Assembly: GCA_905181685.1 (NCBI GenBank)
Contig: CAJIYK010000003.1
Location: 62,001-126,000 of the forward strand
DNA length: 64,000 nt
Origin: Methylophilales bacterium BACL14 MAG-120910-bin43
Lineage (GTDB): Bacteria; Pseudomonadota; Gammaproteobacteria; Burkholderiales; Methylophilaceae
Direction of reading: 5' to 3'
In this document: positions 11,054-49,866 of the stretch, one piece after another
Layout: the number at the start of each line of letters is the position of its first letter
How positions within the stretch are numbered: the first letter of the stretch is position 1
Translations under genes and position numbers: made by a program
The notes under the pieces: generated by a model
The model's input: only the letters and a program-made list of their open reading frames with translations
Databases searched by the model: none
Told to the model about the DNA's origin: nothing

Positions 11054-12385
11054 CTACGCTCTTATTATTGGAATTGTAATTTTCGCTTCGAGCCCTTTAT
11101 CCTTTTTATCTGAGATTAACTCTAATTTACCATCATGAGCCTTTACAATTCTATCGGCAATCGATAAACCTAAGCCACATCCACCTTCATTACCTCTAGC
11201 TTCATCGAGGCGTTCAAATGGCTTTAATAGTCTTTCTAGCTCTTTATCAGGGATCCCGGGACCATCGTCAACCACACTTATGGTAAAAGATTCTTCCTCG
11301 AGGGTAGCAATAAGAACAACTTTTCCTTTTGCATAAAAGAAAGCATTATTAATTAAATTATCTAAACATCTTTGCAATGCTAAGGGCCTCAAGTCAATAA
11401 AGAGTTTTTTTGGTATATCAGTTTTTATATTCTTCTTTCTTAATATAAATTTCTGACCCATTCTTAGATGCTTTACTTGTATGTTATTTAAAAATTTACC
11501 TAAATTAACTGGAATTTTAGTCTCATCTTCGAAGCCTCGAGCAAAATCAAGAAATTGGTTAAGAATATTGTTTATTTCTAGAATATCCTCTTCCATACTA
11601 TTTTTTAAATCATCTGACTTTTCTGGAAGCATTTCAGATGCGATTCTTAGGCGCGTTAAAGGTGTTCGAATATCGTGAGAAACACTTGCAAGCAAAAACT
11701 TTCTCTCTTGGCTTGCCTTTTTTAAGTTAGCTAACATTTCATTAAAAGCCACATTTAAATCGCTAAATTCAACCAAATTATCATGAGGAAGTTTTTCAGG
11801 AGACAAGTCCTTTCGAACGCTTTCTGCTGCTTCAATTAGTCTGTTCAAGCGCCTATTGATTCTCTCAGTTGTCATATAGGCGGCAACAAGTGCGATTAAG
11901 GCGATAATAGTTCCCCAACCTATCCAGTGCCACGGAAAGGGTCTATCTACGATTGTGCGGGGGATCACAACCCAAAATAACTCACTATTTAACTCAAAAC
12001 TGACCCATATTCCCTCAATTGAAAAATGATTAATAGCGATAAGCGTTCCAAGAGGTAGCCTTTGGGTAACTTTTTGGATAACAAGCTGAAGAAATGGGTC
12101 ATCTGGTATTGGCTCAATTTGCTCAAAGAAGTGCGCGGGATATATCCTGACGTTTCCCATAGTTGAAAGCTCGTTCAAGAGTTGAACTCTTTTGTCCGTC
12201 GCAGATGCTGCCATTGATGCTTTGGTAAAATTGACTATGGTAGATATTTCTAAAGCTAAAGCCTCTGCACGAGGCTCTCTTTCATAGATATCAAAAATTT
12301 TAAGTGATACGAGCTGTGTGGTGATCAATAATAATGCAATTATTAAAGAAATCCTGGTAAGGAGACTCTTTGGTAAGTATTTCAA
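11054..12385 (-). CDS. EnvZ-type sensor histidine kinase
   Basis: Inner-membrane kinase of a two-component system. One helix near residues 10-30 and a second near 155-172 flank a periplasmic sensor loop of about 120 residues. HAMP follows, then the phosphoacceptor SVSHDIRTPLTRLR (H237), N box NNAFFYA, G1 DDGPGIP and G2 GCGLGLSIA. The 443-aa length matches EnvZ and betaproteobacterial RisS. The TTG start immediately follows the response-regulator stop (TAATTG), so it is translationally coupled to its partner. The periplasmic signal cannot be told from sequence. Confidence 0.9.
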   Translation of the reverse strand: MKYLPKSLLTRISLIIALLLITTQLVSLKIFDIYEREPRAEALALEISTIVNFTKASMAASATDKRVQLLNELSTMGNVRIYPAHFFEQIEPIPDDPFLQLVIQKVTQRLPLGTLIAINHFSIEGIWVSFELNSELFWVVIPRTIVDRPFPWHWIGWGTIIALIALVAAYMTTERINRRLNRLIEAAESVRKDLSPEKLPHDNLVEFSDLNVAFNEMLANLKKASQERKFLLASVSHDIRTPLTRLRIASEMLPEKSDDLKNSMEEDILEINNILNQFLDFARGFEDETKIPVNLGKFLNNIQVKHLRMGQKFILRKKNIKTDIPKKLFIDLRPLALQRCLDNLINNAFFYAKGKVVLIATLEEESFTISVVDDGPGIPDKELERLLKPFERLDEARGNEGGCGLGLSIADRIVKAHDGKLELISDKKDKGLEAKITIPIIRA

Positions 12386-13101
12386 TTACTGAGCTTCTCC
12401 ATCAGGATCAAAGATATAGCCATACCCCCATTTAGTTTGGAGATATTTTGGTTTATTGGGATTGTCCTTCAATTAATCTTCTAATACGTGAAATTTGTAC
12501 GTCAATACTTCTATCAAAAACATCCAACTCTTTTCCCTTTAGCTAATTGCATTATTCTATCTCTAGACAAAGGTTGTTTTGCATGATCAGTGAAAACTTT
12601 TAATAAATCAAACTCACCGGCTGTAATAGAAATATTTTTACCTTCATGAGAAAGATTTCGGTTTTCTGTATCAAATTCGAATGAACCGAAACGAACTACT
12701 TGTTTTGGAGATGGAGCTCCCAGTGTTGTTTGTCTTCTGATAATTGCATTAATACGCGCTAAAAGTTCTCGAGGGCTAAAAGGTTTTGGAAGATAATCAT
12801 CCGCTCCCATTTCAAGCCCAACAATTCGATCAACCTCATCTCCTTTGGCGGTAAGCATGATGATCGGCACATTAATATTCTTTGCCCTATATCTTTGGCA
12901 TAAATTTAGACCTGATTCTTCAGGCATCATTAAATCAAGAACAATTAAATCAATATCGTTAGCATCAACAATCTCATCAAGGGCAGAGCCACTATCAGCT
13001 GTAAAAACTTTTAAATTTTGGTCAGTAAGATATTTTGCAGTGAGCTCAAGTATTTTTGGGTCATCATCAACAAGTGCAATGTTTGGTTTGTTCTCTGCCA
13101 T
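12386..13101 (-). CDS. ompR: OmpR-family response regulator, two frameshifts
   Basis: DNA-binding partner of the kinase downstream. The receiver domain has the acidic pair VDDD near 11-14, the phospho-acceptor in IVLDLMMPEE (D56) and K in LPKPFSPREL. The winged-helix domain starts FGSFEFDTENRNLSHEG. The ORF track ends early after AKGKRVGCF. Removing one A near 12531-12534 restores AKGKELDVFDRSIDVQISRIRRLIE, and removing one G near 12466 restores DNPNKPKYLQTKWGYGYIFDPDGEAQ. These are the normal OmpR recognition helix and wing. The gene is therefore complete apart from two one-base insertions, most likely sequencing errors. RisA is an equally good name. Confidence 0.9.
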
Positions 13102-13167: not shown

Positions 13168-13215
13168 GTTACAGTTCTGTTACAATTTCACGGTTATTTG
13201 TAATATTAGGTTAAC
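13168..13215. promoter_or_regulatory. candidate response-regulator binding repeats in a divergent promoter region
   Basis: The 166-bp gap between the response-regulator start and the EF-hand gene holds GTTACAGTTCTGTTACAATTT, a direct repeat of GTTACA at exactly 11-bp spacing (13168 and 13179). Weaker GTTAT and GTTAACA follow at 13193 and 13210. Direct hexamers at 10-11 bp are the usual target of OmpR/PhoB-type winged-helix regulators. A TATAAT lies 24 bp before the regulator ATG without a good -35, as expected for an activated promoter. Binding by the adjacent regulator is inference. Confidence 0.45.
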
Positions 13216-13267
13216 ATTGTAGTTGCAAAATGATTGACCGTTTAAAGAAAAAGGCGTTAAGTTAAAT

Positions 13268-13747
13268 TTGAACAAACTAATTCTTTTACCACTATTATTT
13301 GTGACTTGGCATGCTAATGCTGAGGTTGACTTGCAAAAGGTTCGAATCACAAATTCCAATCAATCTATTGAATTAGAAGAGATACATAACGCTTTATCAA
13401 ACTTCTCAAGGTCAGAAGATAAAGTGAACATCATATACGAAGAGCGAAGAAGAGAGATGCTTGAAAGCGTTGAGAGAAGATTTATTTTATGTGATTCTGA
13501 CAACAATGAGCAGTTGGATGTTTATGAAACTACAGTATGCCTCCCACAAATTGCAAGGCAGTTTAGAAGGGTAGATACTAATAATGATTTTTTGATTAGT
13601 TTTGATGAAATGGCCATATTAGCAAAAGCCTATCAAGATAAAGTAAATGTCAAAGAAGACGAAAGTTCTCAAATAGTTAAAAGTAACAAAAAAACATCAC
13701 CAGCAACAGCACAAAAGAAAAAAACTAAAACCAAAAAAATCAATTAA
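13268..13747 (+). CDS. periplasmic EF-hand calcium-binding protein
   Basis: A signal peptide (MNKLILLPLLFVTWHANA) is followed by two canonical 12-residue EF-hand loops: DSDNNEQLDVYE (76-87) and DTNNDFLISFDE (103-114). The ligand positions 1, 3, 5, 7, 9 and 12 are filled in both. The C-terminus is a lysine/threonine-rich tail (KKTSPATAQKKKTKTKKIN). The start is TTG behind a weak AAGGCG. Function is unknown: a periplasmic calcium sensor or buffer is an inference. It is divergent from the two-component genes and shares their promoter region. Confidence 0.72.
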   Translation: MNKLILLPLLFVTWHANAEVDLQKVRITNSNQSIELEEIHNALSNFSRSEDKVNIIYEERRREMLESVERRFILCDSDNNEQLDVYETTVCLPQIARQFRRVDTNNDFLISFDEMAILAKAYQDKVNVKEDESSQIVKSNKKTSPATAQKKKTKTKKIN

Positions 13748-13788: not shown

Positions 13789-14908
13789 ATGATTGAGATT
13801 ACTTCAGCCAACAGTTTTTTAAATTTAAAGAATGAGCTCTCGGACCTAAAGATAGATTCATCTTTTTTATCTTGGGAATTTCATAGTGCACTTGAAACTT
13901 CAGGCTCTGTTGGAAAAAATTCTGGCTGGATTCCCTTCCCAATTGTGGCGAAATCAGAGGGAAAGATGGTTGGTTTTATGCCTATATATCTTAAGGAGCA
14001 TTCATATGGAGAGTATGTATTTGATTGGTCATGGGCAGAAGCTTTTCATAAAAGCGGTTTAAATTATTATCCTAAAATGATTTCGGCTATCCCTTTTACC
14101 CCAATCACTGGTAGGAGAATCATCGCTGAAAGTATAGATATTAAGAGGATGATGGTTAAAGCTCTGGAAAAGATTTTACTCGATCATAAAATTTCTTCGT
14201 GCCACATATTATTTCCGAATGAAGAAGATACCACCTTATTCAATGATATGGGTTGGTTACAACGTGAGGGTGTTCAATTTCGGTGGGAAAATAAAGATTA
14301 TGATAATTTCGAGCAATTTTTATCTAACCTTTCACATAACAAGAGAAAAAAAATCAAACAAGAAAGAAAGAAAATCAATAATTTGAATATTGAAGTCATT
14401 ACCAAACAAGGCAACTTAATCTGTGATGAAGATATTGAATTTTTTTACGCGTGTTATTGCAATACTTATATGCTTCATAATTCATCTCCTTACCTAACAA
14501 AAGAATTCTTTTATCAATTGAATAATAATATGCCCAACAAGCTTGTATTTATATTCGCAGAGAAAGAGGGGAGGAGAATAGCGAGTGCGCTTAATATTAT
14601 TAGCGAGCAGAGCTCTATATGGACGCTATTGGGGGGCGCTAGAATATATTCCTAGCCTACATTTCGAACTTTGTTACTACGCGGGACAAGAGTTTTGTAT
14701 TCAAAATAAATTAAAGTATTTTGAGGGCGGCGCACAAGGGGAACATAAATTAGCTAGAGGTTTTGATCCATTCAAAACATTCTCAAATCATTTCATTGCA
14801 AATTCTGAATTTAAAAGTGCAATCGAAAGTTTTCTAAGCAAAGAAAAAACACATATGACAATGTATACTGATGAATTGGAGGAGAGGTCAGCTTTTAAAA
14901 AAAAATGA
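13789..14908 (+). CDS. COG3146 (DUF482) GNAT-like protein, one frameshift
   Basis: Member of the COG3146 'peptidoglycan biosynthesis/recognition' family, a FemAB/GNAT-like fold of unproven function. Recognisable are SSFLSWEFHSALETSGSVG, YGEYVFDWSWAEAF, FTPITGRR, SHNKRKKIKQERKK and, in the second ORF, GRYWGALEYIPSLHFELCYY, FEGGAQGEHKLARGF. The frame breaks near 14609: the first ORF ends wrongly at GGARIYS while the second continues LYGRYWGALEYIP. One added base joins them. The restored length of about 373 aa is typical. It ends one base from the DUF2970 gene. Confidence 0.83.
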
Positions 14909-48855: not shown

Positions 48856-49866
48856 TTATTTAATTGATTTGCTTAGCATTTTAGCAGTGATATCTACAAT
48901 TGGGATGACTCTTTCGTACGCCATCCTGGTTGGCCCTATTACACCAAGTATCCCTAAGACCTCTCCATCGGATTGGTATGGTGCTGTGACGATACTACAT
49001 TCGTCAAGTGCTTGGTATCCAGATTCTTCCCCAATAAATATTTGCATACCAGATGAATGGTGACTTTTTTCAAGTAATTGAAGTAGCGCTGTTTTTTTCT
49101 CAAAAAGCTCAATAATTTTTTTTATACTTTTTACATTTTGTGACAAATCGACTGTATCTAATAACTTACCTTGTCCAGTCAGAATTAAATTTTCATCAAG
49201 TTTAGGACTAATCGAAAGCTCTACCGCTGCACTCATAAGGTTTGTCATATTTTTTTTCATTGTCGAAAGCTCGTCGATAATCTTTTCTTTTATTTTGCTT
49301 ATATCCAAATCCTTATAATGTTCATTAAAGAAATTAGAGGCCTCAATTAATGTGCTTTGATCATATTCCTCTTGAGTATCAAGCACACGATTTTGAACGC
49401 TTCCATCACTTGTCACAATAATAACGAGGATTCTTTTTTTTGATAAGTTTAAAAATTCTATATGCTTAAAGCTAATTTTTTTAGCCTTAGGTAGCATTAC
49501 AACACCAGCAAAGTTAGTCATACTAGATAATGTGTCAGCCGTGATATTAACTAAATCTTTTGAGTTGGAGGTTTGTAAGGAGCTCTGCAGTATATCTAAA
49601 TCAGCTTTATTTGGCGACTTCATCGTAACCAAGCTATCGACAAAAAAACGATACCCTTTATGCGTTGGTATTCTACCTGCAGAAGTATGTGGGCTTGAAA
49701 TGAAGCCTGCATCTTCAAGGTCCTTCATAATATTTCTGATTGATGCAGAACTTAGATCTAGGCCTGAAGAAGCAGTTAATGTTTTTGAACCGACCGGTTG
49801 GCCATCAGCAATATGATGATTTATTAATGTTTTTAGGAGATGCTGAGTTCTAGTATCAATTTCCAT
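48856..49866 (-). CDS. hrcA: heat-inducible transcription repressor HrcA
   Basis: Repressor that binds CIRCE operators. The N-terminal winged helix reads QPVGSKTLTASSGLDLSSASIRNIMKDLEDAGFISSPHTSAGRIPTHKGYRFFVDSL, the classic HrcA opening. The C-terminal half has IFIGEESGYQALDECSIV and GVIGPTRMAYERVIPIVD. At 336 aa it is full length. No CIRCE lies upstream of this gene; the only one I see in the window is in front of rpoH. HrcA usually depends on GroEL to fold, and groE is not in the window. Confidence 0.96.
   Translation of the reverse strand: MEIDTRTQHLLKTLINHHIADGQPVGSKTLTASSGLDLSSASIRNIMKDLEDAGFISSPHTSAGRIPTHKGYRFFVDSLVTMKSPNKADLDILQSSLQTSNSKDLVNITADTLSSMTNFAGVVMLPKAKKISFKHIEFLNLSKKRILVIIVTSDGSVQNRVLDTQEEYDQSTLIEASNFFNEHYKDLDISKIKEKIIDELSTMKKNMTNLMSAAVELSISPKLDENLILTGQGKLLDTVDLSQNVKSIKKIIELFEKKTALLQLLEKSHHSSGMQIFIGEESGYQALDECSIVTAPYQSDGEVLGILGVIGPTRMAYERVIPIVDITAKMLSKSIK

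Follow-up and report, generated by a model that had tools for sequence, protein, structure and literature searches.

Genes and features of the locus

The window, i.e. the whole 64,000-nucleotide stretch of contig CAJIYK010000003.1 of Methylophilales bacterium BACL14 MAG-120910-bin43 (Methylophilaceae), encodes a sensor kinase and a response regulator on the minus strand and, divergently from them, a small predicted exported protein on the plus strand, with a tandem hexamer repeat in between. The features are as follows.

11054-12385, minus strand: RisS/EnvZ-type sensor histidine kinase, 443 aa (Pfam, NCBIfam)
11954-12268, minus strand: RisS periplasmic sensor domain, residues 40-144 (RisS_PPD, 1.2e-26)
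12514-13101, minus strand: response regulator of the RisA/OmpR type, read as 195 aa, with a frameshifted winged helix
13168-13184, plus strand: tandem repeat GTTACA-GTTCT-GTTACA, best read as RisA box 1 (exact match, matrix, family conservation, ChIP-seq consensus)
13200-13216, plus strand: GTAATA-N5-TTAACA, candidate RisA box 2, 15 bp after box 1
13229-13234, plus strand: AATGAT, a putative -10 hexamer for the EF-hand gene, 12 bp downstream of box 2
13268-13747, plus strand: EF-hand protein ORF, 159 aa, TTG start (Pfam EF-hand_7/6/1, 61-homologue alignment, AlphaFold)
13493-13528, plus strand: EF loop 1, DSDNNEQLDVYE, residues 76-87, between Cys75 and Cys91
13574-13609, plus strand: EF loop 2, DTNNDFLISFDE, residues 103-114

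The kinase matches the Pfam models RisS_PPD, HAMP, HisKA and HATPase_c, the first of which bears out the periplasmic sensor part ascribed to it in an earlier note made from the sequence. Its best NCBIfam model is EnvZ, matched over the full length with a score under the equivalog cut-off. Similarly, the regulator carries a Response_reg domain (8.7e-31) and has OmpR as its best NCBIfam model, also under the equivalog cut-off. The locus is best read as the RisA-RisS (OmpR-EnvZ-type) two-component system of the Methylophilaceae.

Since the remainder of the C-terminal winged helix of the regulator is found in other reading frames of the window copy, and is intact in a relative that is 98% identical (the relatives are about 237-249 aa long), the window gene is frameshifted, either by assembly error or in reality. 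Intact family copies, through to other Burkholderiales, conserve the recognition helix DRS[IV]DVQ[IV]SR[IL]R. Frameshifts lie at 12380-12620, in the DNA-binding domain of the regulator, and at 14585-14908, in a FemAB-like gene, and the xoxF copy of the window genome is interrupted by an internal stop; in relatives all three genes are intact. The assembly scores as 51% complete and may contain many errors.

The RisA box and promoter anatomy

The GTTACA direct repeat with 11-bp spacing is exact at 13168-13184 and is the single exact copy within the window, where it also has the top score (25.3; 99th percentile, 13.2) of a weight matrix that was built from 59 family boxes and scanned against upstream regions. 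In 31 genus genomes there are 30 exact occurrences of GTTACA-N5-GTTACA, compared with 3 of the reversed control. In ChIP-seq of Bordetella pertussis RisA, the consensus GTTACA is present in 391 of 430 peaks (PMC11019879). Given this consensus and the recognition helix kept across the Burkholderiales, the repeat is best read, by sequence and family match, as a RisA box. The earlier proposal of an OmpR-family regulator site is thus strongly supported, the repeat being identical to the experimental RisA consensus.

In 51 of 59 family loci, box 2 follows box 1 after exactly 15 bp. TATAAT-like hexamers lie 9 bp past box 2 in 71% of loci and 12 bp past it in 46%, as compared with 0-12% at other distances. 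In OmpR/PhoB-type activated promoters the regulator box substitutes for the -35 element. The fixed 15-bp gap and fixed -10 distance likewise suggest that box 2 stands in place of a -35 element, and together with the -10-like hexamer it would form an activator-type promoter pointing at the EF-hand gene. A generic promoter scan of the window did not have the hexamer at 13229-13234 among its predictions. The box spacing and the conserved hexamer support the view, also put forward in the earlier note, that the EF-hand gene is a target of the regulator. RisA probably also regulates its own operon. In B. pertussis, the risA promoter contains a RisA site by ChIP-seq, this site notwithstanding, no autoregulation was seen under the conditions tested (PMC11019879).

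Linkage of the EF-hand gene, box and RisA

We searched 120 relatives for the EF-hand protein and the regulator. Judged from loci and coordinates, the two genes are adjoining and divergent in 62 of the 64 Methylophilaceae genomes that carry RisA, the exceptions (G035 and G067) both belonging to one genus. No homologue of the EF-hand protein was found in eight genus or family genomes that have no RisA orthologue, several of which are incomplete. A second set of 80 named genome contigs, found by the EF-hand protein alone, may overlap the first; here the regulator is divergent and a tandem box is present in 77 of the 77 loci with room to look, including those of Methylotenera versatilis 7 and Methylophilus methylotrophus. 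Since loci of this family also went into the box matrix, the named set is only partly independent. The window genome's placement in the Methylophilaceae agrees with these results, the loci of its family-level relatives matching named Methylotenera and Methylophilus records; its size and gene content suggest a link to the OM43 clade. With this survey the linkage check proposed earlier has been run, and the EF-hand gene and repeat do stay beside the kinase genes in relatives.

Other candidate targets of RisA

The lanthanide-type methanol dehydrogenase gene xoxF was identified from sequence, and a RisA-type site lies upstream of it in all 28 genus genomes in which the gene was found, the window genome included. 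Site scores range from 12.9 to 27.7 and exceed 20 in all except one, compared with the window's 99th percentile of 13.2. Outside the genus, 28 of 36 family loci have a site scoring at least 17. Aligned xoxF promoters read roughly TGTAAM-N5-TGTAAC-N5-TGTTGCAA-N17-TAWWRT, with the site abutting a conserved promoter. The site is flanked by xoxF on one side and by a divergent peptidase-like gene on the other, which makes the latter a possible further target.

The genome G050 is 99% complete and lacks RisA; its xoxF neighbourhood is unchanged and the site is absent. Control of xoxF does not appear to be universal, since the genera of G035, G038, G041 and G053 have RisA and no xoxF site; this distribution suggests that xoxF was gained by, or lost from, a RisA regulon within the family. 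Two genomes, G042 (76% complete) and G007 (91% complete, in 50 contigs), carry the xoxF site though RisA was not found in them.

A site is also found upstream of coxB in 24 of 28 genus genomes. We rejected coxB as a family-wide target, as the site is mostly absent outside the genus, the close genus g14 included. At the cox promoter, many genus genomes (L199-L226) place the box between TTGACA-like -35 and -10-like hexamers, a position that would fit repression better than activation.

Proteorhodopsin was likewise rejected as a target, with a site in one of 25 genomes (G014) and none in the other 24, and was kept as a negative control. Within the window, 51 of 52 genes score below 17 and only the risA region reaches 17. 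A second matrix match, at 49130, was taken as chance; it lies inside the ORF at 48856-49866, which we take to be HrcA-like. Single-genome RisA-type sites were seen upstream of proteorhodopsin in G014 and of a cytochrome c and sugar dehydrogenase-like pair in G026 (L142 and L168).

A proposed circuit

The reading that we prefer, with a probability of roughly 0.6 as a whole, is that RisA activates the EF-hand gene and binds at xoxF and cox, and that the EF-hand protein binds metal and feeds back on RisS. Activated RisA would bind both tandem GTTACA-type boxes in the intergenic region and thereby switch on the EF-hand gene, as the conserved promoter anatomy predicts; it would also bind upstream of xoxF and, in the genus, of the cytochrome c oxidase operon. 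In this way a signal from the envelope may act, through RisA-RisS, on both respiration and the oxidation of methanol. The EF-hand protein would be exported and hold a metal, perhaps calcium or a lanthanide, in its two EF loops. It is most likely a periplasmic accessory that feeds back on RisS, by analogy with CpxP and CpxA. Comparative anatomy and one natural loss of RisA lend good support to the predicted part of the circuit that comprises the RisA box, the EF-hand gene and xoxF. The earlier idea was of a calcium or divalent-cation response; as the box also stands at xoxF and the cytochrome oxidase operon, the likely biology is control of methanol oxidation rather than a generic cation response.

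It is possible, if rather doubtful, that the EF-hand protein does not feed back on RisS and is solely an output of RisA, which would buffer metal in the periplasm or assist metallation, e.g. for XoxF or the envelope. The promoter anatomy marks its gene as a target, xoxF has the same regulator box, and the protein sequence has no sign of RisS contact. The near-invariant linkage to the kinase genes, together with the lack of an EF-hand homologue where RisA is missing, suggests a closer tie than this.

The CpxA-CpxR/CpxP system resembles the proposed circuit in that a small exported protein, whose promoter contains boxes for the regulator, is tied to a two-component system of the OmpR family. The window protein differs from CpxP in having EF-hands rather than the CpxP/Spy fold, and has no match to an LTXXQ/Spy-type domain in Pfam at E ≤ 1; the feedback is proposed by analogy.

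The EF-hand protein and its possible ligand

The protein consists of a signal peptide, a long helix (residues 22-75), the EF pair (76-114) and a Lys-rich tail. Its signal-peptide-like N-terminus and two canonical 12-residue loops agree with the earlier description of a secreted two-EF-hand protein. Against the Pfam EF-hand models it reaches E about 1e-5, slightly below the curated cut-off (26.2 bits for EF-hand_7, where the gathering score is 30), and the homologue L067 passes the Pfam cut-off in two stretches. Both loops have ligands at positions 1, 3 and 5 and Glu at position 12. In an AlphaFold model the long helix is followed by the EF pair, with pLDDT about 97 over the pair; a Foldseek search gave generic EF-hand folds alone, with weak E-values (best 0.018). 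Both results support the EF-hand fold.

The main ligand positions of both loops are kept in 27 of 27 genus copies, as are, specifically, D1, D3, D9 and E12 of loop 1 along with both Cys. In the 61-copy family alignment, D1 and E12 of loop 2 and the 15-residue spacing between the loops are invariant, and the metal ligand positions, including both Glu12, are conserved in nearly all copies, loop 1 being degenerate or shortened in a few copies outside the genus. The Cys pair around loop 1 (13490-13540), which is present in all 27 genus copies and in 9 of the 34 other family copies, occurs as both residues or neither, and is possibly a disulfide that closes the metal site.

Like lanmodulin, this is an exported EF-hand protein of methylotrophs with short inter-loop spacing, and some family loops are nearly identical to those of lanmodulin (DPDND.TLD..E). 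It differs in having two loops rather than four, a spacing of 15 residues rather than 12-13, a Cys pair and a long N-terminal helix, and in that Pro at position 2 is rare: the window loops have Ser77 and Thr104 there, and loop 1 has Pro in 5 of 27 genus copies. Membership of the lanmodulins was rejected on both Pro2 and the arrangement of four EF-hands at 12-13 residues.

A lanthanide is a possible alternative to calcium as ligand. As a special case of the preferred circuit, the EF-hand protein could sense lanthanides and the locus could provide the lanthanide control of xoxF that is still missing for the family, a proposal that we consider unlikely. In its favour, xoxF has the RisA box, and the available sections of a review of lanthanide regulation name no xoxF regulator for the Methylophilaceae (PMC11845868). 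Two loop variants also have lanmodulins as their top solved relatives: DPDNDNTLDVYE, from the genus, for which lanmodulin is the best (8fns, 2e-7; 6mi5, 4e-7), and NRDNDDSLDREE, for which a Hans-type lanmodulin ranks first (0.018). A Lys2 variant and an Asn1 variant have lanmodulins among their best solved relatives (0.0015 and 0.018). However, the window copy and another family variant resemble calcium proteins in the same comparison, their loops being like ordinary Ca2+ EF-hands, and the scarcity of Pro2 and the two loops in place of four tell against a lanthanide sensor. The broader proposition that RisA-RisS and its EF-hand partner form a metal sensor (lanthanide, or Ca/Ln) that sets xoxF expression in the Methylophilaceae, small-genome relatives included, is one in which we place similarly little confidence.

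Small exported proteins beside RisA in other Burkholderiales

Small exported proteins are also encoded divergently from RisA in other Burkholderiales (L095, L096, L098, L099, L114, L117, L120, L123-L127 and L129). Most carry the motif P-x-E-R-x-x-L-R-x-D-L (e.g. TPEERRSLRRDLHEAGRDLYR), and a few have EF-hands; those motif proteins that were scanned matched no Pfam or NCBIfam family. Profile comparison of the motif proteins with the EF-hand protein's N-terminal helix gave an hhalign probability of 72%, with one scrambled control also reaching 0.006; this is no more than suggestive of homology. G116 encodes a motif protein and, next to it, an EF-hand protein, an arrangement that would fit an origin of the Methylophilaceae protein by fusion of the two.

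These proteins, which mostly have the motif and no EF-hands, and the weak profile similarity lend some weight to an explanation less probable still than a lanthanide sensor, in which the EF loops are structural and the protein, as a member of the RisA regulon, has a general role in envelope stress or one like that of a chaperone, and is the counterpart of the Burkholderiales proteins; the retention of metal ligand positions, both Glu12 among them, in nearly all family copies speaks against it. Finally, the genomes encode further OmpR-family regulators, but it is very improbable that the tandem boxes serve one of these and lie beside risA by chance, given their identity to the RisA ChIP-seq consensus, their position beside risA family-wide and the absence of an xoxF box in the RisA-less G050.

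Relationship to known systems and significance

The Methylophilaceae locus shares with RisA-RisS of Bordetella and with OmpR-EnvZ the RisS periplasmic domain, an OmpR-type regulator, the GTTACA box and a box at its own gene. It differs from Bordetella RisA-RisS in the divergent EF-hand gene, and its predicted targets are xoxF and cox, as opposed to the Bvg-repressed genes of Bordetella. The kinase that phosphorylates RisA in B. pertussis is RisK and not RisS (PMC11019879). The control of a PQQ alcohol dehydrogenase by a two-component system, predicted here, has parallels in MxbDM, MxcQE, MxaY-MxaB and PedS2-PedR2, which control such enzymes, xoxF among them (PMC11845868); the regulator of the present locus is instead of the RisA/OmpR type and the taxa are different.

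We found no report of the RisA-RisS/EF-hand arrangement in the open-access journal literature searched. In a cultured OM43 methylotroph, xoxF is reported always to rank first among the genes in transcription (PMC5120137). Judging from its conserved boxes, the locus appears to be a controller of methanol use that has gone unrecognised. A conserved RisA box upstream of both xoxF and the oxidase operon, with an exported EF-hand protein locked to RisA-RisS, makes for a concrete hypothesis. If it is true, RisA, which is known mainly from Bordetella virulence, would extend to central energy metabolism.
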